This document shows, one piece after another, positions 7,089-61,652 of a stretch of DNA of 64,000 bases. The position numbers were made by a program, and so were the translations under genes. Each line of letters begins with the position of its first letter. The stretch's first letter is position 1. This DNA comes from Anaeramoeba flamelloides (lineage: Eukaryota > Metamonada > Anaeramoebidae): assembly GCA_027625915.1 (NCBI GenBank), contig JANTQA010000042.1, forward strand, positions 4,538,001 to 4,602,000, in the 5' to 3' direction. The notes below the pieces were generated by a model. That model saw only the letters and a list, made by a program, of their open reading frames with translations, was not told the origin of the DNA and made no database searches.

Positions 7089-7708
7089 ATGGATTCAACA
7101 ACTTTAGAAATCTTTAAAGTGACTATTTATAAACAAAAAAATGAATTCCAAGGAGCAATGTATATCACACCATTCCACATAACTGTTTATGCAACCAAAA
7201 AAGGGGAATTTCAATTAAAAAAATCTATATTTAACTGTCATTATTACGAATTAAAAGAAATCCAAACCTTTGATTCGCTTCATGTAAATTTAGACCTTTC
7301 AAACATTTCTCAAGAAAAACGAATAAATGAATTTTTTATGAAGGATTAACCTTCGAAAAACCAAAAAACAAAAAACAAAAAACAAAAAAAAACAAAAAAA
7401 CAAAAAAACAAACAACAAACATTTTAAAAATTTTTTTCCTCTTAATTCTCCCGCCTTCTTAGATGACACTCATTACTACAAACCAAAAAATTACTTTTGG
7501 ATCAGACAAAACAAACCAAATCTTCAAGATTCTTCTTAGACAATTAAAACAGATCACAAGAGATTTCCCATCTGAACAACTTCCAACATTAACAATCAAG
7601 CCTCAAAAGCGTGAAACTGACATGAAAAAAAAAATTGAAGTGTTGACCTTTAATTTAGGTATTTATTTTCTTTGATCTTTTCTCTTTTTTTCTCCCCTTT
7701 TTTTCACA

Positions 7709-7745
<37 letters not shown>

Positions 7746-10700
7746 AAAAAAATTAACCAAAAACAATACCAATTTTCTTTTGTTACTTTAAGAATCCGAG
7801 TGGTTACAATCACCGATTTCAAGCGAGTACATGGGGAACAATTTCTTAAAAATTTATCGATCATATTGTGATTATTTGTCGATCCCACAGTGCACACTCT
7901 TTACGCTCTTTCTTCAAAAGTTTTTTCGAACAGAAACAAAATGCCCAAATTCCTTTAGACTAAATTCTATTGAAGAGATTGTTAGTGATTCAAGATCTCG
8001 TTCATTTTTAGATCTGAGACCTGTCTTTTCTTCTTTGAAATACTCGACATATTTTCGATCTCTTGACATTTCTAATGTGCAAAGAAAAGAACTTCTTCCT
8101 CTCTTATCAGAAGTCGTTCAATTTAACAGAACAATCTCTGAAATTTTCATGAGCAATATCAAACACCTTGATGGATTTTCAAAATTTAGTAAGTTTTTTA
8201 TTCTTCTCTTAAATGTCTACTATTTGCCTCTTGTCCTTTTTTTTTTTTTTTTTTCTTTCTAGGTTCTGTTTGGATGATTTTTTTAAAATAAAGTAATTTC
8301 CACAATTTTACAATCAAGCAAAAACAATGCTAAAATACTTCTAAGGGAGTATGTACCTTTTGCCAAATTTTGAGTTGCTCAATTTCTGAGAAATTGAATC
8401 ATTAAAATCATTTCTTTATCGAAATAAATGGATGTTTTCAATAAATCGGGGAGTGTCAGATGCAGCAGTAGAATATATTTGCATACCAATAAAATTTTTG
8501 TTACTGCTTTAAAAAAGTGCAGACTTTTAGTTTTAACAAGTGTTTCTTCGCACTGCTTCAAATAGGCGAATTAAACACTTTGAAGCACCGCTTATAAAAC
8601 TTTGAGTGCTCACTTTTTTAAGGGACTAGTAAACTAAGAAAAAATCTTCAATTAAATTTAATAGCAAATTCAAAAAAAAATACCGCATCTTGAAATTGAA
8701 AAATGGTGTAAAAATCTGATTACTACAAAATCAAACTTACTTTCAAAACTATTTTTAGAAACGAATTATTGTTTTGAAAAGTTTGATCCATTTTTCTCAT
8801 TTTTGAAAAGTTCAAAATCATACATATTTCTGAATTGTTTAAAAAAATTATTTTCTTTGAAAAGAAGATAGAAATCCCATTGCCTACGAAGGGGGTATAC
8901 AAAAATACACTTTTAAAAATAAAACCACTAAGTTCTATAATAGCCCAGTTATAAAAAATCTACTTAATTTCAAAAAAATTACAATAATTATTTTAAACTT
9001 TAAAAAATCTAATTTTTTTCATTCAAAGAACAGTTCGAATCAATTTTTTCTTTTTATTGAAGAAAAAAATACAAGAAAAAAAAGCAAACTTTAAAATTAA
9101 AAATTCCCCCAAAATACTTTTTTAAAAGCTGGAAAAATCAACTTATAATCTAAAGAAATACTTTTTAATTTGATAATGAAGAATCAATAATTAATAACCA
9201 AATCTTAATTTTTTTCAGTATATTTTTAATAACCCAAAGATTAAATATATAAATAGACTTTACAATTATTTCTCAATTTTTTAAAGATTATTAAACAAAT
9301 AAAATGAATTCAAATAAATAATTCTAATAATAATAATAAAAAAAAAAATAGATATTATCAAATAACTGATTTTAATACGAAAAGTTCATTTTTTATCCCC
9401 TGAATATTTAAAAAAGAATCTTGTTCTAATTTTTTAAATTTCAAGAAATTTAATAAATATTTGTGAATAAAATAAATGATCACTTTTTTTAGATCTTGAA
9501 TGGATTCAATATTTGATTTATTTTTGATTGTATTGTTAAATACAAGATTAAAAGTTCATGGTTCTTTGTGAATATAGACTCTCAGAAATTACTAAAAGTG
9601 AGATTACTTCAAAATAAAAATGTTTTTTACAAAATTTTCTTTTTCTAATTTAATCCAAAAATCAATACAAAAAAAAGAGATCTTTTTCCTGAAAATTTAA
9701 TTTGAAAAAATGAATTCTTTTAAAAATGATAACTCATCTCTTTAAAGTTGAGAAATGAATTTGCATATTGGGTTTAATTTTATTCTTGTGTAAATAATTA
9801 CTCTATTACCTTTTTGGAAAAAAATACGTTGCAGCTACTAGTACCCAAAAACAACTGTATCCGAGTATAATATATTTACATACCAATTAAGGACCACGTT
9901 TGTAACTGAAATTCAAGGTATTGTGTGTTTTTATCATGGCTTGGTGATTGGTAATTCTCACAAATATTTCTTCAGTTAGATATAAGATAGAAAAAATGAC
10001 ATATTTTTATTAAATTTTCTGGCCTCGTATCTAAAAATGAAAAAGAAGGTTGGGAAAATTCAATTGTTTGAGAAAATTTCTTCTTAGGTGAAAGTGACAA
10101 ACCCTGAAGACGATTCTGAGACGTTTCTATTATTTATTTTTGATATGTGAGTTAAATTAAGGGAGTAACCACCATAAAGTCAAAAATTTCACTTTTTTAC
10201 CAATTTCCAAAGAGGATCAGAAAACAAAATTTTTTACTTTGGCGGTGTCACATTGATTTTTTGTATTTTCAAAGTTCTTTTTGAAAAACAACATATTACA
10301 TTTTTTTTCTCATATAAAATAAAAATGCCAAAATAGAATGTTAAGTTGAATTGTCTTATCTAAACTCAATTTCAAAAATTATGACTCACCTGAAATAATA
10401 AATTGAAAAAAAAAAAATATTTCTTTAGTAATCAAGAACAACTAATAATTAAATACGATTCGTAATTCACTTTTTAATCATTCAAAATATATAAAAACCT
10501 GATATTTTAAAAATTAAAAAAAAATAAAACCAAAAACTAAAAAAAGTGAGTTACAATTTTTGAAATGAGCATTACGGATTTTTATTACTGAACTTTCACT
10601 GAAAAAAGTTAACAACAAGATTTTTTACCAATAATTAAATTAATTTTCAAAGACATTTCATAGTCTCAATTTACTAATGATTATTTGTATTTTCTAAGAT

Positions 10701-10752
10701 CATCTTTTTTTTTTTCCTCATCATCTTTTGCAAAAAAAAAGTATCGGAAAAA

Positions 10753-10808
<56 letters not shown>

Positions 10809-13800
10809 GAAAAAAAAATAAAAGAAAAACAGAAATTTGAAAAAGTAAAATAAAAATTTGCAAAATTAGAAAAAATAACTCTTATCCAAAAATTTGAAAA
10901 TATTTTTTTGAGAAGAATACTGGTATAAAACCTAAAAACAACTTACATTAACATTATCAATTGAATCAAAATTTTTGAAAAATAGTTTATTTTGGAAAAT
11001 GTTAAATAGTTTACCTTTTATTCTTATCTCAACATTCTATTGTGACATTTTTATATAAGTTTGAAAAAAAAATTAATAACTGTATTAAAAGAAGCACTTT
11101 AAATACTCAAAATCCAACAAAGCCACAACTAAATAAACAAGGCAGTTTTCTGATCTAATTTAAATTTCAGTAAAAAAGTGAAATTGTTGGCTTATGATAT
11201 TAGACTTTTATTCTAATTGAACTTCTTCTGAAATTAAAAAGGAATAAAAATGGATTAGATCAAAAAAAAAAAAAAAGAGATCAGAGAATAAATAATCTTC
11301 AGATCTATCATTCTAAACTCTTTTTCAAATAAAAGGGCACAAAAAATTTCAAGAATTATTCATAAATGAATCAAATTAATTATAGTATCATTCTAAAATA
11401 TAAGAAACCCTTTAAAACATAAAAAAAAAAAACACTCAACTGGATCTTTAAAACTCATTAAAACAAAACAATAAAAAATTAAAATTCAATATTTTAAAAA
11501 TTGGTGTGCCCTTTTATTTGAAATGAGAAATCTCGTTTTGTAAATTGTAATGAAAAAATTATAAAACCCAATAAAAACCTTTGAACAAGGCGAATTGGGA
11601 AAATTGTTCTCCACATTTTATTGATAATTCTTTACACGTCAAACTTTTTGTTCTTTAAAGTCTCATTTTCAATATAAAGTTGCAATTCATCTGGGTATTT
11701 TGTTGGAATGTTTTTTCTTTATTTCTCTTTTCTTTGTTCCATGCATCAATCCAATAATGGTCTTTCTTAATTCCTATTTCTATCTTGATTCGAAATCAAA
11801 CTTAAACTGTTTCCATTTATACACAGGTAGATTATTTCCAAATTGGTTTCTTCTGATCTTGCTTTTTCATTTTCCAACTGTTCAATTTCAAAAATAAAAA
11901 AAGCAAAAAATGAAAAAATGAATAATTAAAATGAAAATCACCATTAAGTAATTATCTTATTAACAATCAAAGTCGATGGTATTGACGATTTGAGAGGTGT
12001 GCCCTTTTGTTTGAAAAATAGTTTATATTTAAACCTTTTTGTGAAATATTTGGAATTTCAACGGAATTGCTGTTTTTAGAAAATGATTTAACCGAAGAGA
12101 ATTAAAAATATCGAAATAATTTAATGATTTCTATCATTCTGGTATATTTTTATTGTTAGTTGAATCTAATACAATACCATAAGCTGAGATTCAATGATTA
12201 TTCCTTAATTTGTAATTATTGTCTATGTAAATGTTCAATTCAATCTGTTAACTAAATCGAAAACAAAACAAAAATTATCTTTTGATCTGATCATTGGTTT
12301 ATTTTCTTTCTTTTAATTCAAGAAAATGTTTGTTTTTTTGAAATACTTCTTCAGTAATATAGGTTTATTGTATTGTATTCATTTGGTTTTTAAATTAATA
12401 AATTTTTGATTCAAATTGTAAAAAACTCAAAATAATTATAAATAATGCTTTCAATTTTTTAACAATATTTTCTTTTTCTTGGAGTTAAACCTTTTGTAGT
12501 TGTTTTTTGGATTTCAAGTATTCAATCTTTTTTCTTTAATTTTTGAAAGTATATTCTTTGTTTTGGCTTATTTCGATATTTGAAAAAAGAATTTGGAAAA
12601 TAAATTTGTAAAAAAAGGTTTTTTTTAATAATCATAAATTTAAATGAGGCAAAAAGCCCAAAGTAATTGCCCTTGTTCATTCCCATCCAAATTAAGAAGA
12701 AAAAGACAAAATAAATCTTCGAAAATATACTTTTGTTTAATTTTTTTTTTTTTTCCTTCTTGATTTAAACAAGTTTATTCAAAAGGTGATCTTTCTTGTT
12801 TTACCCGAAAAAAGAAAGGATTTGTTTAAAAATACACATATTATCAGAATCTGTTTTTTTTTGGTTTGTTCTTGAATTAATTTCAATTGAAGAAAAATAA
12901 AATACAGTTTATTGAAACAAAAAAGTTGAAGAAATAGAATGATTGAAAAAAACAAATCAGCAACATACAACAAATAAACAAATATTCATTTATTTAATAC
13001 AGTCTAATCTTTTCCATTTTTTTTTATTTTTATTATTAAACCTGTCTTTTGAATTATCTTAAAATAAATACTAAAATATTTTTTTAGTTAATGCTTTAAA
13101 TATGAATAAAAAAATACCATTACAGGTTCTTGATGTATCAAAAAATTCATTAGGTGACAAACTTTCAAGAAAACTTGTAACTGCGCTCTCCGAATTAGAT
13201 CACGGAATTGTAAATTTAAAATTATCAGATTGTCAAATTACAAGCAAAGGAATTTCAAAATTATTTAATTCAATTTTAGATTATAAAAACATACAGCAAT
13301 CACTTAAAATTCTTGATATTTCTGGAAATAGTATTGGGCAGGTTGGTTCAAAAGGTAAATATTATTCAATAAACCATATTTAATCATATTTAATATTAAT
13401 TCTTTCTTTCTATACATATACCAGTAATAAAAATAAAACCTCTCAATATTTACAGCATTAATTTAATTAAAATTAAAAAAAAATCATTATTGGAAAAATT
13501 ATCAAATATATTTCCGCCAAAGATCCCTTGATTTTTCTGTGTTTCTTTGTTTATTTAAAAAACAAAAAACTTTGTTATTGCACTCAGTTATAATTAATAC
13601 TTGAATCATATTTTTAATGTTGAATGAAAAATTTCAAATTTTGTTGAAAAAAGAATTTTCCTTTCATCCTTCTTTTTTATTGTTTTAATTTTTATTTGCT
13701 CTATGAAAATTACTTAATATTTTCCGGTAGCTAGCACTTTGATATTTGTTTTAGAAAAATATTTAATAAGAAGTTAAAAATACACTGTTTTTTCAAACTA

Positions 13801-16800
13801 AATTTTTATTATTTGTTGATAGTTCATCTTTATTTGATCCAAGATACGATGAAACGAACTTAATAATAATAATACTTATACATATTACCATATTTCGTTC
13901 AGATCTTTTAGATTTTCAAAAAAGATTTATTGAACAATTTTGGATAAATGGAATTATCACTAATCAATTTATCTTTTTTTTTTATCTCATTATATTATTT
14001 CCAAAATTTCAAAAGTATCATTTAGTATTTATTTCTCAATTATAAAACCCAGAAAAAAAAAAAAAAAAAAAAAAGATTTCAATTGAATTTGAAAACAATA
14101 AAGAAAAAATTTTCCTTCAAAAATAGATTTTTTTGAAACCTAAAAATGAACTTTTTCACTGCACTAGCATGAAAAAATAAAATTGAAAAAAAAAAAGTTA
14201 GACAAAACTACTACTTTCCTTAACCTTTCATCTTGAATAATAAAGTTTATTCACAATATAATCAAAATTCCAGAACTTTAAATTCATGGGACTATTTTAT
14301 TTATTTTTGTTAGTATAATCAACTTTTTTAAAAGTCTCTAGTTTAGAAAAAAAGGTATTTTTTCGGGTAAAAAATCCCAAATAAACTGAAGAATGAATAT
14401 TATTTTAATTCAACTTGGAGATATTTACTTTGATGGATAATAACGAATAGTTTTGAAAACATTGTACTCATCTAATAAAACTGAAACAGATAAAAAAAAT
14501 AACTGATGATAATTATTGAGAGTGTCCGTCAAGTGCTGTCAAGTGCATATCTTTTTTTTAATTTGAGAAATAAACAGAAAATTTTAAGAAATTTTCGGTT
14601 TATTCCAAAAAGTAAAAAAAACCTAACGGAAAATCAAAAAAAAAATATTTTTTTCAATTTATATCAATAAATAATTCAATAATTGTCAAAATAATTCATC
14701 ATAATTTGAAAGATATTTATTAAATTTAAAATACTTTTAAAATATATGAAAATAACCCCTTAACTGTGAAAATAAAAATATTCAAATTTTTTACTATAAA
14801 ATTTGAAAAAAATCTTACTGGAAAATTAAATTCTCCAACTTAAATTGTTAAATATCTTAAAAAATAATTTTTGATCCAAGATCTTTTATTAACCAATAGT
14901 GTTTATTATCAGTGAAGTTATCAAAAAGTGAAAAATTAGCAAATGTTTAATTTTTTTTTGAAAAAATTTTTTTATGATCGTGTGCTATTAAAATCTTTAA
15001 GAGAAATCACAAAAATCACAGAAATCACAGAAACTGAAAAATTGAAATTATTTTGAAATTAATCTTGAAAGAAAAAAAGTTTACCCATTAATTTCAATTT
15101 TCAACTTTTTAATATAAATGAACTTTGAAAAAAATCATAACCTGGAAAAATATCCATTAAATTTGAAGTTTTTTTTGTAGAGTAAATAATTAAAACGTTG
15201 AGAAAAATTTTTAATAAATATCTCACATTCCTTTTTTAAATTTTTCAATTTCCTGATCAGATTTTAATTGGAATTTAGAAACCTTATTTTTTTCAATTAG
15301 AACTTTGAAAATTTTATCTATCTTCTTCATAGGAAGGGCATGCACATAAAAAATGATCAATATTTTCTATATATCCTTTTGTTTATACTTTTAAACATAA
15401 AAGGATAAAATTTATTTCAATTTTTATTGATTACATAGTAATATCTATTTAAGCAATTAGTAAATTACCTGAATTTTAGAATTGTTGAACTTGATGTATA
15501 ACTTTAATATTTTTGGGTTTTAAATAAATAATTTTGATTTTTAATTATTGTAAAATATTTTTGTAGAGTGTCGTCAAGTGCCTAGCTTTTTTTTAATTTT
15601 AGAAATGTAAAGACAATTAAATAAATTTTCTCAGCATTTTAAAAAATAATAGAAAACTAATGCGGTTTTTTTTAATTTGAGAAATAAAAAGAAAATTTTT
15701 GAAATTTTCTTTTAATTTCTTAAATTAAGAAAACCTAACGACACTCCCAACTTTTGGAATTCAGCAACTCATTATATATGAGTGTACTTATGTATTTCAA
15801 ATTTTAGTTCAATTAAATCTTTTGAATGTCAGTTGATTTTATTATGTTTATTCTTTGATTAAATATTATTAATTTTTCTAAATAAGGAAGAGATAGATTA
15901 TCAATTTTTTTTTTTATTTAAATTTTTTTTTTTATTTACTGAAATTATCATATTTTCAATTTTAAATTCTGTTTTGTAAATAAGAATTGATGTATTTCTA
16001 TTTATTTTACATATTCTAGTTATGTATGAATTAATCCAAGAATTTAAAAAATTTAATTTTTTTATTTCATAATTGAAAATTTCTAATCCATATGTTAATT
16101 GACTTAATATAAAAGATTTAAATAAATTAATTTTTTAAACTATCATTCAGAGAATTGTTATTGAATAATTGTTTACAGTTGTTATATGTTTCCTTTGCCT
16201 TTTTTAGATTATAAATTATATGTGAAATTTTATCTAAATAAATACCCAAATATTTAATTTTTTTTTAAAATCTTTTGATATAACTGTTTTATCTTTATTA
16301 AGTTTTAGTCCAAATTGAATAATAATTTCATATATTGAATTTAATTTTTCATTTTAAGATTTTATTACCTTTTATAATTAAAATTAAATCATCTGCAAAC
16401 ATTTGAAAAAATATTGATATTTATCATTTTTTCATTCTATTCTCGATTTAGTCTAGATTAAACTTTAATGGAAAAATTTTTTTTATGATCACAAAGATGT
16501 AATAAACAAAAAATAATCCTCCTATTTTCTCAATAAAAAAAATAACCAATAAAATTCAGATTATAAAATTTTATATCTTTTGTTTACGTAATGCCTTACA
16601 AACAAACAAATTTGAATTATTGTTAAGAATCGATGAATGATAAATAACAATTTTTGATATTTAAATAAACATTTTTAGAATTTAATTTAATCAATATTTT
16701 TTTTAAAAAAATTACACACTTCAGTATAAATAACTTTTATACAATCTGTGTAATCTAATTATTGAACAAAATCTATATAATATTTTTTTTTTATTACAAT

Positions 16801-18289
16801 CAAATTAAAAACTAATAAAATGCATTATTTATAAACAATTCAATTATAACATTTCAATATCATTTTCAACAATAATAATAACAATAAAAAAATAAAAAAA
16901 AAAAAACAATTAATAGCACTTCACAAATGGTTACAGTCTATGACAAAAGGTTCATTTCATTTAGAAACACTAAACGTTGGAAAAGGATCATTAGTGTTAA
17001 ATAATATTTTAGATATTATTCAGAGTGATTTTAAAAATAAATTACAAGAATTAGATATATCAGGTTCATTGCTTGACGAAAAAACAGGATCCCTTTTAGC
17101 AAAATTTATTAAGGAAACCAAAAGATTACAATATTTGAATATCTCTAGTACCTTTATTCCACGTGAAAGTTTAAATTGTTTATTTAAAGAAATAAATTCA
17201 AACAAAAAAATTATTGATTTATTTTTTAATTCAAGTTTGAATGATTTTGGAGTTAAAGGGGCAGAAATTATTGCAAAAAATTTAGTTAATTGTAAAAAAA
17301 TAAAATTTTTAATTTTAGATGAAAACAAATTTACTTTAAAAGGGGTAAAGTTAATTTTTGAATCACTTTTAACAAATCAATCAATTAAACATTTTTCAAT
17401 TGCAAGGAATGTTTCAAAAAATAAAAATAAAAATTCGTCTGAATTATCTGAAATAATGGAGAATTTTATCAACAATAACAAAACAGTTGAAGATTTAAAT
17501 CTCGCTGGAGGATTAAAGCATTATTTTTTAGGTGAAAATCTTTATCCATTTTTAGAAGGACTAAAAAATAATAAAATTATCAAAAGATTGAATATTAGTT
17601 TTAATCAAATTGGTGATGAAGGTTTAAATATTTTAAGCGATTCTCTTAAAGTGAATGAAAGTTTGACTTCTTTAAGGCTAGATGATGTGAATGGCAACTT
17701 TACTTTAGGTGGGATTGAAACTTTTATTAATCAAATATATGAAAATAAAAAATTACAAGATTTCCCTTTACCATTCAATATGATAAAAAAATTTAATAAA
17801 AAAAAAAATCTAGAAAATATTAAATCTTTAAAGGATACTATTAAATTTGTGATCGATAGAAACATAAGGGTTAACTTAGAATCAAAAAAAGAAAAAAATA
17901 ATATATTCGAAACCGATGTTGAAACAGAAACAAGAACGGGAACAGGAACTGGAACGGAAACGGGAACTGAAACAGAAACGGAAACCGGATCTAACACAGA
18001 TAAAGAAAAGGGGGGCGAAGAAAATGAAGACAATGATAGTAATGGAAAGAAGAATAAGAAAAAGAAGAGGAAGAAGAAGAGGAGGAAAAGAAAAATGGGG
18101 CATTTATCAAGTAAATCCTTTGAAAATTTTGATAAATTAGTTAAAAATCAAACTGGGTTTTCTAATATCCAATCAATTAATCAAAATTCAGATTATTATA
18201 ATTCGATACTAAATAAGCACTTAGAAAATAAAAATAAAGAAATTTTTATTAGAACAAATTCTGATAAAAATAAAAACAACACCACCACC

Positions 18290-18321
<32 letters not shown>

Positions 18322-20281
18322 AACAAAAACAAAAACAAAAACAAAAACAAAAAATGATTTAATGGATATTGAAACAATTGAAATGGACGAAACCTTGCTA
18401 AATGCATTAAAAGAAAATAATACATTATTAATTAAAAAATTAATAGGATTTAGTAATAATAAAAATAAAAAAAAAAAAAAATATAGTATTAAAATGGTTG
18501 ATAAAAAAACAGGTTCAACATGCTTCCATTATGCATGTTCATTTGGTAATACAGAATTATTATCATTTTTATTGTTGAAAAAAAAATCTGAAAGGATAAT
18601 TAATTTGAAAGACAAAATGGGTTTAACACCATTACACAAACTAATGATTAAAAACCCAAATAAGGAGTGTATTATTTTATTATCAGATTATGAAGTAGAT
18701 TTTAATGCAGTCGATAAACGTGGATGGAATACGATGCAATTATTGTTACGCTCATTAGAGAAAATGAAAAACGTTGATGAATTATTTTCTGATACCAATG
18801 AAATTTTATTATTGCTATTGGAAAACGACTGTGACCCTAACCAACCCGACCACAAAGGAGTAACGTGCGTGCATTTGGCAGCTGGATCCGGATTTGTCGA
18901 GCCGCTAAAATTGCTGTTGCAGCATGGCGGCAACGTTAATCAAAAGGATTATTATGATTCCACGCCATTGCATAAGGCTTCAAGAAATGGGAGGATTGGA
19001 TGCGTTAACATATTGCTACAGTACGGAGCCCAAATTAATTGTATCGATTCTGCGGGTAATACTGCCATTTCTTTAGCCCGTGTCTTTGGACAAAGTAAAG
19101 TTGAGGAAATCCTTGATCCTAAATCAAGGTTTGAATATAATATCGTTTGGGAGCACGATAAGGAATTTTCACAAAACAATCAAAAAATTGCTGAAAAGGA
19201 TACCACTTATTTTTCATACACAATCGTCGTCTTTGGAGCAATTAAATGTGGCAAAACGAAATTCATCGAAAGATTTATTACTAAATTATTCACAGTGAGA
19301 TATTTCCCCACAATTGAAACAAAGCACAAATTCAAATCCATTGTTGAAGACACCAGAATTTTAATTAATATTTTGGATGTGTCAGGTGATAAAGTTTATT
19401 CCTCATTTAGAAGCAATTGGATTCGACAAGCCGATGGATTTGTATTATGCTATTCTGTCACCGATCAAGAAAAGGTCTTGCAGGATTTGGAACATTTTTA
19501 TAAAAATATCCAAACAATCAAAAGCAATTTACAAGAAAATCTGCCATTAATATTAGTTTCTTTAAAAAACGATCTCAAAGAAAAAAAAATAATTTCTGAA
19601 AAAGTTGGAAAAAATCTGGCTGAAAAGTTTAATTGCCCCTTTTTGAGCGTATCCGCGAAGGCCAACTTAAATGTTGATTTAGCCTTCAAATTGGTACTAA
19701 TGGAAATTAAAAAAAAAAATACAGAATTGAAACCAATAACAGACGGAAACGAATTTAATATATTGACTCCTAAAAAATCGCATAGATTATTTAAAATTTC
19801 AAATAATAATGAAAATATGAATAACAATAGCAGTTGCGGCAGTGGCAGCAGCGGTAGCAACAAAGACGATGAAAATAAAAGATTAACCATTTCCTTTGAA
19901 CAGATTATTAAAGAACAAAGTTTTTTAGAATTTTTCCATTTATTTTTACAGAAAGAATTTGCCGAGGAAAATTTAATGTTTTATAAAGTTGTCACTGAAC
20001 TTAAACAAATAGACACAGAAAATACTCAATTAATAAAAACCGCAGTACAAAAAATTTTTGATAATTATATTTCAACTAATTCTCAATATGAGATTAATAT
20101 TGAATATAATGTTCGAAATGAAATTATTCAAAAAATTAAAAAATTGGATTCAATAGACCAAGGTTTATTTGATAAGGCAATGATCCAAATTTTTGAAATG
20201 TTAAAAACAGATAGCTACCCTAAATTTATAAAAAGTGATTTTTATAAACAATTAATTTCTTCACAATCAAAAGAGAAATAA
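7089..20281 (+). CDS. CARMIL-like LRR protein fused to ankyrin repeats, a Ras-like GTPase and an RGS domain
   Basis: Five exons: 7089-7283, 7463-7658, 7793-8188, 13088-13354, 16917-20281; junction phases 0,1,1,1 all keep frame; about 1472 aa. Residues 1-110 resemble the CARMIL PH-like domain, with the join at residue 65 restoring its last strands and helix. Then comes the CARMIL entry helix region and an LRR solenoid to about 645, closing with KKLQDFPLPFNMIKKF, like the end of animal CARMIL solenoids. Residues 660-835 are low-complexity (ETGTET, KKRKKKRR, poly-N). Ankyrin repeats lie at 840-1085 (STPLHKASRNG). The Ras-like domain is at 1118-1288: P-loop GAIKCGKT (1125-1132), PTIE, DVSGDK and SAKAN. 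The RGS domain is at 1342-1464 (SFEQII, FAEENLMFYK, DSYPKFIKSDFY). CARMILs restrain actin capping protein at membranes, but no CPI motif was found. Likely a membrane-actin scaffold answering to Ras- and G-alpha-type signals; that role is inferred. Confidence 0.86.
8676..9840. repeat. Dispersed repeat Z, copy 1
   Basis: Matches in the same order with 20925-21800 and, for its last part, 24930-25200. Shared words include CTTGAAATTGAAAAA at the start, TTACAATAATTATTTTAAAC in the middle and AAAATGATAACTCAT near the end. Divergence is high, and no ORF or clear terminal repeat is visible. An old non-autonomous element or a decayed transposon body would fit. Confidence 0.55.
10355..10885. repeat. Dispersed repeat X, copy 1
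   Basis: Collinear with 49150-49695 (SIN3 intron 3), same orientation. Shared words include GACTCACCTGAAA, CAAGAACAACTAATAATTAAA, TTTTTGAAATGAGCATTAC and TTTGCCAAAATTAGAAAAA-like ends. Both copies carry a long A-rich tract at the same internal place (10757-10830 here). No coding content. Confidence 0.65.
11318..12010. mobile_element. Element Y, copy 1: DNA transposon relic with ~20-bp terminal inverted repeats
   Basis: The left end TTTTTCAAATAAAAGGGCAC is mirrored by the right end GTGCCCTTTTGTTTGAAAAA. A second inward copy of the end word (GTGCCCTTTTATTTGAAA) sits near 11503. The element is collinear with copy 2 at 39560-40263 over its whole length. On the minus strand, patches such as KKDHYWIDAWNKEKRNK and its counterpart in copy 2 (LKDDYWIDVWNKEKR) look like the remains of a coding region; I do not recognise the family. 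No clean target duplication is visible. Confidence 0.65.
14518..14650. repeat. V repeat, short copy
   Basis: GAGTGTCCGTCAAGTGC followed by AATTTGAGAAATAAACAGAAAA and AAACCTAACGGAAAA: the same string of words as in 27590-27680 and 15655-15745. Non-coding. Confidence 0.55.
15305..16425 (-). mobile_element. LINE fragment C: reverse transcriptase palm/thumb to C-terminus, with V insertion
   Basis: Read on the minus strand from 16425 downward: MFADDLILIIKG (F-A-D-D, RT motif C, about 16388-16407), IKYLGIYLDKISH (the YLG.LD block after the palm, about 16215-16255), ICKINRNTSILIYKTEFK (about 15960-16015) and DLIELKFEIHKYT (about 15783-15822). A V repeat occupies about 15560-15770. The C-terminal part continues to about 15310, including an HFL..CPSYE-like patch at 15330-15360. 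Many stops and frame shifts are present. This is the only copy here that keeps the catalytic RT motif. Confidence 0.82.
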
Positions 20282-57206: not shown

Positions 57207-60200
57207 TTAATCTTCATCATTTTCATAGTCTAATTCAATTTGTTGTGATTGTAAAGCTTCTATAACCCAAGTGGGATAAGTTATTTTCTTTTCACCCTTT
57301 TTTTTAAATTGTGCTTTCATAAATCCTCTAACAAATTCTGGCATTTTGTTATTTTTGATCGATTCTCTAAACCGCTGCATCAATCTCATTTGGAAACGGA
57401 TGTTATGGATTGTTAGTAAATGGCAGCCAACAGTTTCCTTTGTAACTAAAGTGTGTATAGCAGATTTAGTATAGGTTTTGCATGTTAGGCAGTCACAATC
57501 CTTTTCTATTGGATCAAAATCAAATTGGTATTTTTCAGATTTCAATTTTAGTGTTCCTTCCCAAACCAATGCAGTGCCAAAACGTGAAGTTCTTGTTGGA
57601 TACACACAATCGAACATGTCGACACCAAGCACAGAGCATACTATTAGATCTACTGGGAAACCTACGCCCATCAAATATCTTGGTTTATCTTCTGGCAAAT
57701 AATCTGTACACAACGAAACAATTTTCCAAAATTGGTCCTTAGATTCGCCTCCGCTCAACCCACCAATTGCATAACCTGGGCAATCCCTCTTAATCATTTC
57801 TTTTAAACAAATTTTCCTTAATTCTGGATTCAGCCCACCTTGAATAATTGGAAATAAATTTTGTTCTTTTTTCCGACTATGGGCTTTAATACATCTATCT
57901 AGCCACCTGATACTACGATACATTGCTTCTTCTAATCGTTTACCGGAAGTGAGAACATGAACAACATCATCAAGTTGCATAATAATATCTGCTCCAATTT
58001 GGTTTTGAATTTTAATCGAAGTTTCTGGCTTTAACAACATTTGACTTCCATCTTTTGGTGAAACAAAATTTACCCCTTCCTTTTATTATTAAATAAGAAT
58101 TATTGATTAGTTTAAAAATGAAAAATAATATTAAACCCGGGAAATTTTAATAATAAATGAAAATATTTTCTTTATCAATACTATACAATGGACAAAGAAT
58201 TTTGTTTTTATTAAATATAATGAAATTTGAAAATATATTCCTTAATTTGTTTGAAAGAAGATTAAAAGTTGAAATTTATTTCTTTTCTTTTATGTATTTG
58301 AACTCAAATTCAAAATTTTACACACAGTTAAAATAGTTAAAAAAATCACAATAATACAATTTCATTCAAATTGAAAATAATTTTGATTTTTGAAAAATAT
58401 GAAAATCATTTTTTCATCTTTTCATTTTAGTTTTCATTTCATTTTTTGAATTCCGTAACTTGTTTTGTTTGATCAAAATATTTTTTTCAACAATTGTTGA
58501 TATTTTGTAAAAGTTGAGTTGTTCAAAATAGAAGAACTCAAATAAAATTAGTTTGTGGTCTCCTAACCATTTGATCGATCAATATTCCTAATAGAATTTA
58601 AACAAATTTGCCAATGCATTTTTTCTGTTTTGCTCTCTCCAAAATTTTGACACACCCCTTGATTTCTTTGTATTGATAATTATTTATTTTTTGCGTTAGC
58701 CCATCTCCAAAATTTTTAATACACTGATAATTTATTAGTATTGATTATTATTTTTTTTGCGAGTATTGTAATTAAATAACAATTGTTAACATTCCAATTG
58801 GTGAATGACTCTAGGTTTGGTATTTCTTCAAGAATTAATTGATAAAGTTTTTTTTTTTTCAAAAATTGAATTTTGGTGTGTTAAAAATTTTGAATGGGAG
58901 TATATTTTATTTTGAATTATGGAAAGCCTAGGCACTTGAAGAACCTCAGTGGCACTCTACATCACTCGATGGCACTCCCCTAATTTATAAATTTTTATTT
59001 AGAAATTTCAATAAAAAATCATAATTTTCTTGATCATTAACCAAATGAGAGGATAAATAATGAGTCTTTATCCCGAATAATATCAAAGATGTTATTCTTA
59101 TTGCTTTTGTTGATTTGGATTAATTCTTTAATCCAAATTGTTCGATTTTCTTTATAGAATGGACAGTCCCATAAAAAATGATTAATAACTTCATGTATGT
59201 ATTTCTAAGTTTAAAAATGTTTTTTACATAAATTGCGAGATTTTGTTTTTAAATTATTTTTATCATAAACATAAGAATATCTAGTTAAATAATTTGTAAA
59301 ATGCCACAATTTTTGAAATGGGGTTTAGAAAGTTATTCTTTCCATAAAAAGAAATCAATCATCAAATAATTGTTTTTTTTTGTTTTTAATTAATAATAGG
59401 AATTATTTTTGAAATAGACAGAAAGTGGGGGAAAAAAATTGTTTTTTCAAAATATTAAGGTATATTTCTGTGATAATACAAAGAAACGAAAATATGATGT
59501 AAACTTCTCATGAATGAACTTTATTCAAGTTTCACTTGAATATTTCTTAAAAATTAATCTTTATTTTAATGTTTTGAACAACTTAATTCAAATAGAAAAT
59601 TTTTGTTACAGTTAAGACAGTTAAAAGAAAAAAAAGATCACAAGTGTAAACATGATGTCCCTATTTTAACAGTTTCAAAAATTTTGAAATTTAGTTTATT
59701 TTAAATTCTAGCACTCTTTGGAAATAGTTAATAATTTATAAAAGGATATTTCCTTGAATTTTAAAAAAGAAAATACTTGTTAAATTCAAACCTATTTTAT
59801 TGAATCTATCAAAAGTTGTGTTTTTGAAAGAATTTATTTCTTGTTCAAAAATAATGTAAAATTAAAAAAGTGAGTACTAAGAGTTTAAAAGAGTTTTACT
59901 CAAAATATTAGATTCACCCCTTAATACAGCAGTTTTAAAAAAGTGGGGACTTTTTAAAAAGTTTTTTGAAATTTTCTGTTTTAATAAAGTAAAAAGTTTT
60001 TCAGAATTAAAACTTTTTGAAAGTTTTGTGTTTTAATAAAGTGAGTGGTTAGGCTTTAAATGTGGTGCAGAGTGTAGAGTAGGAAAAAAAGCAATTTTTT
60101 TATAAAAGTCCACCCTTTATTAAAACAGAAAACTTTCAAAAAAGTTTTAATTCCACGACAAAAAATCCCATGAATTTTACAAAGCTTTTCACTTTTACAA

Positions 60201-61652
60201 CACATTTCCCCTTTAAAAGTGTCTGAAATTGTTTGAAAGTTTGAAAATTGTGAAAACTTGAGAAAAGACATGAGATTTTTTGTGGTGTAACAAAATCAAT
60301 AAAAAAAAAGTACACACTTTTTTTAAAATGACTATATAATTTTTCAGATACTTTTTAATACTTATAGCACATACCCTTTATGATTAATTTATTGGCTTAT
60401 GGTAAAAAAACTACCACTTTTTTTTTAACTTGATTTATAGGATAGCCTATGTCCTAAAATTTGAGTTTTCAGGGGGTTTTAACTTACCATTTGTTGAAAA
60501 AAAGTTCAATATAATTTTTAATTGGTAAGCCTTATTAAAACCTGAAAATTCAAAGTAAGATCTATTAATAAAAGAAAAAATCAATGACTAAAGAAAAAAT
60601 GGAGGGTTCAACACAACAAAAGTTTTTTTAGCACAACCTCTTATTACAAGGGTTTTTTTTTTGATTGGTCTAATTATTAAAATATATGTTCCAAAATTTG
60701 AATACTTTTTGAGATTTCTTTAATTATGAATCGAATCTAAAGATAAAAGGAGATCAAAATTGTTTTGATTGGTTTGATTGAAAATAATGAGATGAATTAT
60801 TCTTTGAAATAAATTTGTTTCTTCATTGGAAATAGATCTAACTTTTCATCTTCAGGTTTCTGTGATTCTATCAATGTTTTCAATTGAAAAAGTATGTTGA
60901 ACTTTTTTTCCAAAAATCGTAAGTTCCGTTTTTGTATGATTTAAATGGATTTTGTTTGATGAAATCGAGAATAATGATTGTAAAATTATTAATTGGGTAA
61001 TATCTTGTAGAAAGATTTATATTATTTTAGACTTTGGTTCTAATCTGGTTGTTAGGAAAACTTTTCAAAGCTGATCCTAGACTGAAAAATATTCTTCTTG
61101 TTTTTTTTTTTTTTTGGATTTTCTTGAGAGAGATGAAAGGCAAAGCAAAAAACAAAAAGAAAAAAATAAGAGCATTTATTCAAACATACCTCTGTAACTT
61201 CTGCAAGTTTTGAAAGAGAAACCATTTGAAATCCACCACTGTCAGTAAGCAAGCCACGATCCCAATTCATGAATTCGTGTAAACCTCCACATTTTCCAAA
61301 AAATTCACCACCAGGATGTAATGCAAGGTGATAGGTATTTCCTAAAATGATTTGGCAATCTAATTCTTTTAATTGTTTTGAAGTTAACCCTTTCATTGAT
61401 CCACAAGTTCCTTTGTTCATTGAAAAGAAAACATGAATAAAAGTAAAAAAAAAAAAAATTTGTGTTAATTTTGAGGAAAGAAACAAGAGCGCCAAACAAA
61501 GAAGCAAGCTTTGATACAATGAAAAATTTTAACTGCAAAAACATACCAACTGGTTGGAAAATTGGTGTTGTCACTTTGTAATGTGGTAGTGTTAAGATAG
61601 AAGTACGTGCTTTACCACTTTTTGCTAGAATTTCAAACTCTAAAGCAGACAT
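57207..61652 (-). CDS. QTRT1: Queuine tRNA-ribosyltransferase catalytic subunit (eukaryotic TGT)
   Basis: Three exons on the minus strand: 61652-61547, 61410-61190, 58079-57207; phases 1 and 0; 399 aa against about 403 in human QTRT1. The first junction joins [12 protein letters not shown] and the second [14 protein letters not shown], both family-conserved. It swaps guanine for queuine at the wobble position of GUN tRNAs. Key residues: LLTDSGGFQ with D92; IGGLSGGES (214-222), the eukaryotic form, where bacteria have [19 protein letters not shown] with nucleophile D266; zinc ligands C306, C308, C311 and H336 (CDCLTC..TIHN). All are present, so the enzyme should be active, normally as a dimer with the QTRT2 paralogue, which is not in this window. 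Intron 2 (3.1 kb) carries element W copy 3, LINE F and hairpins. Confidence 0.96.
58310..58880. mobile_element. Element W, copy 3 (inverted relative to copies 1 and 2)
   Basis: Reverse complement of 34803-35345: CCATTTGATCGATCAAT, TTTGCTCTCTCC, TTTGGTATTTCTTCAAGAATTAATTGAT and the outer end AAAATTGAATTTTGGTGTGT all match. About 570 bp; it holds a small internal duplication around 58630-58760. Confidence 0.6.
58975..59370 (-). mobile_element. LINE fragment F (C-terminal domain)
   Basis: The minus strand reads [19 protein letters not shown] (about 59250-59310) and [20 protein letters not shown] (about 59112-59175): a well-preserved H..L.DCP.......R motif, followed by [13 protein letters not shown]. 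This is a LINE of the same type as fragments A-C but a different subfamily. V words (CTAGGCACTT, GGCACTCTACATCACTC) lie just beyond its 3' end. Confidence 0.75.
60005..60152. repeat. Inverted repeat (MITE-like)
   Basis: Left arm AATTAAAACTTTTTGAAAGT..TTTTAATAAAGTG (60005-60043) pairs with right arm CCCTTTATTAAAAC..ACTTTCAAAAAAGTTTTAATT (60113-60152). The loop is about 70 bases. Confidence 0.6.
60457..60555. repeat. Inverted repeat (MITE-like)
   Basis: TTTGAGTTTTCAGGGGGTTTTAACTTACCA at the left is matched by TGGTAAGCCTTATTAAAACCTGAAAATTCAAA at the right, with a few mismatches and a ~30-base loop. Confidence 0.55.

Follow-up and report, generated by a model that had tools for sequence, protein, structure and literature searches.

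Gene structure and domain order

A five-exon gene lies on the plus strand of the window, which is the whole 64,000-nucleotide stretch of Anaeramoeba flamelloides DNA that was analysed. All introns are bounded by GT..AG. Splicing of the window sequence yields a single in-frame product of 1472 amino acids, and the four frame-keeping junctions of the preliminary description were recovered. CARMIL-type PH-LRR, ankyrin, Ras-fold and RGS parts are present in one protein. The order, from N to C terminus, is PH-like, CARMIL-type leucine-rich repeat (LRR), ankyrin, Ras, RGS; its LRR, ankyrin, Ras and RGS members, claimed earlier, were found by Pfam in the spliced protein (E-values: Ras 1.2e-32, ankyrin 2.4e-27, RGS 6.5e-23, LRR 5.9e-11). 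The core fusion was confirmed to need no splicing, exon 5 coding for LRR, ankyrin, Ras and RGS. Features are listed with window coordinates, strand and, in brackets, their basis.

7089..7283, +, exon 1, residues 1–65, first part of the predicted PH-like domain (intron position and phase as in locus L012)
7463..7658, +, exon 2, residues 66–130, remainder of the predicted PH-like domain, with a modelled helix reaching residue 96, followed by the beginning of the linker helices (splice, model, L012 introns)
7793..8188, +, exon 3, residues 131–262, linker and first LRRs of the predicted CARMIL-type solenoid (splice, 4k17 match, model, L012 introns)
8189..13087, +, intron 3, 4899 nt, AT-rich; counterpart in L012 of 180 nt (L012 mapping)
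13088..13354, +, exon 4, residues 263–351, leucine-rich repeats (splice, 4k17 match, L012 introns)
13355..16916, +, intron 4, 3562 nt; counterparts of 235 nt (L017), 2175 nt (L037) and 201 nt (L012) (paralog mapping)
16917..20281, +, exon 5, residues 352–1472 and stop; remaining LRR, linker, ankyrin, Ras, RGS (ORF, splice, Pfam)
16917..17782, +, exon-5-encoded portion of the LRR, ending at residue 640 (Pfam, 4k17 match, Foldseek)
18047..18094, +, polybasic run within the low-complexity linker, residues 729–744 (sequence)
18506..19078, +, ankyrin repeats, about residues 882–1072, start set by eye (Pfam)
19223..19711, +, Ras-like G domain, residues 1121–1283 (Pfam, KRas alignment)
19235..19258, +, G1 motif GAIKCGKT, with Ile in place of Gly12 and Lys in place of Gly13 (KRas alignment)
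19376..19390, +, G3 motif DVSGD, with Ser in place of Ala59 and Asp in place of Gln61 (KRas alignment)
19562..19573, +, G4 motif LKND, Leu at Asn116 (KRas alignment)
19892..20254, +, RGS domain, residues 1344–1464; equivalents of E87, N88, N128 and D163 present, Lys at R167 (Pfam, RGS alignment)

The window gene is confirmed as real. A protein search returned the database record P0001 ('leucine-rich repeat isoform f', Anaeramoeba flamelloides), identical over 1472 aa; the record is an automatic annotation, itself a gene prediction. The introns of L012 were located with P0085, an annotated paralog (37% identity in alignment A1) that was mapped to this locus. Intron sites follow residues 65, 130, 262 and 351 in the window gene and 65, 129, 263 and 352 in L012, with phases 0, 1, 1 and 1 in both. 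The window gene has introns of 179, 134, 4899 and 3562 nt, L012 has introns of 126, 385, 180 and 201 nt; the two long introns thus occupy sites where the relative has short ones. The last junction is also common to L017 and L037. A gene model fusing two genes, to which introns of 4.9 and 3.6 kb might point, is of negligible probability and is rejected, since L012 has short introns at all four sites and in the same phases, L041, L044 and L046 are unbroken single-frame paralogs, and the annotated protein, though itself predicted, is identical.

A transposon was looked for in the long introns, and their content is mostly A/T-rich runs and weak repeats. Short repeats with similar starts at window 14530–14580 and 15560–15740, in intron 4, are perhaps relics of small mobile elements. 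Elsewhere in the window, an edge open frame (3–1298) resembles, by eye, the end of a DOCK-type exchange factor; minus-strand frames at 57207–58082 and 61052–61528 resemble, also by eye, parts of a queuine tRNA-ribosyltransferase.

CARMIL-type PH-LRR module and comparable proteins

By sequence, the best solved structure is 4k17 (mouse CARMIL1, 4.9e-20), with a colinear match of residues 196–640 to chain residues 199–643. The PH-LRR structure model, which ends at residue 674, agrees with mouse CARMIL1 throughout its length. For CARMIL1 the Foldseek value was 7.4e-31, for the first other protein 2.8e-13. The fold match to the CARMIL1 entries 4k17 and 9ec0 spans 627–633 residues; among the 50 matches listed, alignment from residue 1 is seen only for two CARMIL entries. 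On sequence and predicted fold, the LRR region is assigned as a CARMIL-type solenoid, in line with the module proposed earlier. For the N-terminal region, the AF2 model predicts strands between residues 7 and 78 and a helix at 82–96, and hhalign probabilities for the PH region are 93.6 (P0040), 96.9 (P0043) and 82.2 (P0059) in a comparison made without a negative control. This region is assigned as a PH-like domain from the model fold and the profile comparison. With an E cut-off of 1, no match to the CARMIL PH family appeared in the Pfam listings for the five A1 members or for L041, L044 and L046.

The window protein resembles CARMIL1 (LRRC16A; 4k17, 9ec0) in having a PH-like domain followed by an LRR solenoid, of similar length, and differs in that ankyrin, Ras and RGS follow its LRR and no string resembling the capping-protein (CPI) motif was found. 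Neither RPK nor HxTxxR, the patterns used for this motif, was found in 22 family sequences, most of them last frames only; within that scope the previously reported absence held. Because the motif was not found, the protein is not filed as a CARMIL. Reuse of the CARMIL part as a scaffold is plausible.

In the excerpted text of its report (PMC9270954), Dictyostelium CARMIL-GAP is a CARMIL with a RhoGAP; it accumulates at leading edges and phagocytic cups, and its GAP region was of greater importance than its CPI region. Like the window protein, it joins a CARMIL module to a GTPase regulator, in an amoeba. Unlike the window protein, it has a RhoGAP insert acting on Rac1a and retains the CPI domain, and no Ras, ankyrin or RGS part is named for it in that excerpt. 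The EukProt transcript P0059 likewise has a CARMIL-type LRR (205–624 against 215–655 of 9ec0, 3.4e-23) and then RGS, but is 904 aa long, with no ankyrin or Ras among its listed Pfam domains. In the RGS tree, the P0059 domain lies outside the Anaeramoeba family clade; a common CARMIL-RGS ancestor is unsupported by this tree, though the P0059 branch is very long (1.78). CARMIL-GAP and P0059, taken with the present gene, suggest repeated fusion of the CARMIL PH-LRR module with G-protein regulators.

Roco proteins share LRR, ankyrin and a Ras-like G domain with the window protein, and some members are said to carry RGS (PMC4017136, in excerpt). They differ in their G domain, that of the window protein scoring 113 bits for Ras and 41 bits for Roc. 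Pfam found no COR or kinase in the window protein, and with an E cut-off of 1 it listed no COR for the five A1 members. Roco membership was ruled out by the lack of COR.

The protein is already annotated, but no description of it was found in the literature searched. Already known are all the single domains, and G-protein regulators on a CARMIL-type scaffold. The preliminary description knew of no protein with such an order: the order is indeed undescribed in the literature searched, as are the family size and a probably switch-dead Ras beside a largely intact RGS, but for CARMIL joined to a G-protein regulator CARMIL-GAP and P0059 are precedents.

Family in the A. flamelloides genome

The genome (254 Mb, 76 contigs) was searched with an RGS profile. 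At least 150 RGS matches were obtained (150 of 471 candidates scored, all 150 matching, a few with internal stop codons), a very large set for one protist genome. Forty RGS loci with long open frames were examined in addition to the window. LRR, ankyrin, Ras and RGS matches occur in 20 of the 40; at L020 the LRR sits in a separate upstream frame. RGS is the sole match among the five parts tested at the other 20. The LRR-ankyrin-Ras-RGS family is at least 21 loci, including the window gene, instead of the one protein first described.

At L041, L044 and L046, all five parts match inside single ORFs of 1775, 1840 and 1840 residues; the five-part join is independent of splicing, because these three paralogous loci hold all five in one unbroken frame. 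Blastp values for their PH-like region are 6e-5 to 1e-4. Pfam confirmed ankyrin, Ras and RGS in the three and listed no LRR above the cut-off. L047 has a frame of 1955 residues, its PH-like region placed by eye only. In the RGS tree the family RGS domains lie on one side of a branch (99/97), with 28 other same-genome RGS rows, including three loci present twice, on the opposite side.

Ratios of dN/dS, computed on five close paralog pairs with the window gene in none, are 0.09–0.20 for Ras, 0.08–0.18 for RGS and 0.19–0.49 outside the domains; for the pair L009/L010, Ras (0.20) differs little from the remainder (0.24). The Ras domain is under purifying selection in the five pairs and, given its low dN/dS, looks unlike a decaying one.

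Ras-like and RGS domains and their proposed roles

Ras residues are numbered as in H-Ras, and counts are over the 21 family loci. The Ras fold and the nucleotide motifs are supported by sequence (PF00071, KRas alignments). All 21 loci have Lys16, Ser/Thr17, Asp57 and Gly60, and each of the 19 rows readable at that position has Lys117. Gly12 is present in none; Gln61 is replaced by Asp (17), Glu (1) or Lys (3), and Ala59 by Ser (20) or Cys (1). Ile1127, Ser1174 and Asp1176 stand at the Gly12, Ala59 and Gln61 positions of the window gene. The GTPase-defective Rnd1-3, RhoBTB1-2 and RhoH likewise lack these three residues, according to excerpts of PMC8072805 and PMC13236570, but are of the Rho family, the window's being a Ras-family domain within a large scaffold. 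As Gly12, Ala59 and Gln61 are absent in all 21 loci, the Ras domain is probably not a cycling switch. The Ras-like GTPase switch of the preliminary description therefore stands as to its fold and is improbable as a cycling switch. No CAAX-like end was found in 22 family rows. A structure model of the ankyrin-Ras-RGS part was too poor to use (pLDDT 62) and was discarded, so that the domain arrangement of this part is not readable from it.

RGS positions, counted over the same loci, are in RGS4 numbering. Equivalents of E87, N88, N128 and D163, which are G-alpha contacts of RGS4, are retained in 21 of 21 loci. The S164 position holds Ser (13) or Cys (8), the L159 position Leu (7), Met (8) or Ile (6). 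R167 is kept in no locus (Lys 17, Gly 4). The main new result is that, in every member examined, key catalytic residues are lost in Ras and main contact residues are kept in RGS.

The preferred reading, whose chances are judged to be even, sees the protein as a scaffold at the membrane whose RGS domain works as a G-alpha off-switch and whose Ras domain does not cycle and serves for docking, most likely GTP-held. The PH-like and LRR part would target the protein to the cell membrane or to a site rich in actin, and would not bind capping protein; placement at the membrane may be through the PH-like part. At that site the RGS domain would speed GTP hydrolysis on a G-alpha subunit. The Ras domain would not cycle, because the residues needed for hydrolysis and RasGAP action are gone. 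As a permanent docking site, most likely GTP-bound like Rnd and RhoH, it would recruit Ras-type effectors where G-alpha is turned off. The protein may in this way couple G-alpha and Ras signals. Links between Ras and heterotrimeric G proteins are usually made by separate proteins; here a single chain may connect the two signalling systems, which other cells divide between separate proteins. The family makes it testable whether a small GTPase can persist as a fixed docking element within a regulator of G-alpha. The wider proposal, that Anaeramoeba expanded a family of one-protein couplers in which a CARMIL-derived membrane scaffold carries a permanently GTP-held Ras and, in cis, a functional G-alpha off-switch, is tentative and rather doubtful. 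If true, scaffold location, not the GTP cycle, would set Ras-effector recruitment, exactly where G-alpha signalling ends.

The preferred reading is weakened by the RGS substitutions at R167 and L159, the similar L009/L010 ratios, the missing CAAX-like end and the poor ankyrin-Ras-RGS model. Two observations count against a GTP-held Ras. Asn116 is substituted in 18 of 19 readable rows (G4 motif altered), which can weaken nucleotide binding instead of locking GTP, and Thr35 is present in only 16 of 21 loci, being lost in five. Both, together with long low-complexity inserts within the Ras domain of several members, favour a domain that does not bind nucleotide, or for which such binding has no effect, and that offers no more than a fold for protein contacts; the family would then be an RGS scaffold with three binding modules. 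This is somewhat unlikely, given the invariant Lys16, Ser/Thr17, Asp57, Gly60 and Lys117, which nucleotide binding would explain.

A Ras-like domain that remains under regulation as a switch, with atypical catalytic residues, controlling the RGS in cis so that Ras input sets G-alpha shut-off, is unlikely. The P-loop and switch regions align with those of KRas and the domain is constrained (dN/dS), but Gly12 and Gln61 are missing in all 21 loci. RGS14, an RGS protein that can also be a Ras effector, and its paralogue RGS12 lend this reading some support, one protein joining an RGS domain and Ras; as described in the excerpted source (PMC2655719), they differ in binding Ras via tandem Ras-binding domains and own no Ras domain.

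Poorer still are the prospects of an RGS domain that does not act on G-alpha and is a binding module only. The loss of R167 and the retention of L159 in only 7 of 21 loci agree with it; the four other, invariant contact positions oppose it, as do the best solved matches, RGS2, RGS18 and RGS3 (1.5e-17 to 6.9e-17), against 1.2e-6 for Axin. RGS2, RGS3 and RGS18 are GAPs, and the RGS domains of Axin and sorting nexins are known only as binding modules.

Among RGS frames outside the family, RGS is followed by DUF547 in 8 of 10 scanned (L016, L021, L022, L024, L025, L028, L039, L040), the DUF547 match of L025 being below the cut-off. L031 (L031:2265-5534; G000:C1:88700-94700) holds one frame of 1090 aa with flavodoxin and NADH:rubredoxin-reductase-type (Pyr_redox_2) matches, then RGS; a redox enzyme-RGS fusion would be very odd. 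A rubredoxin-like match in this frame is below the cut-off, and its start resembles, by eye, the end of a flavodiiron diiron domain. L029, L030 and L032 lie near L031 in the RGS tree.
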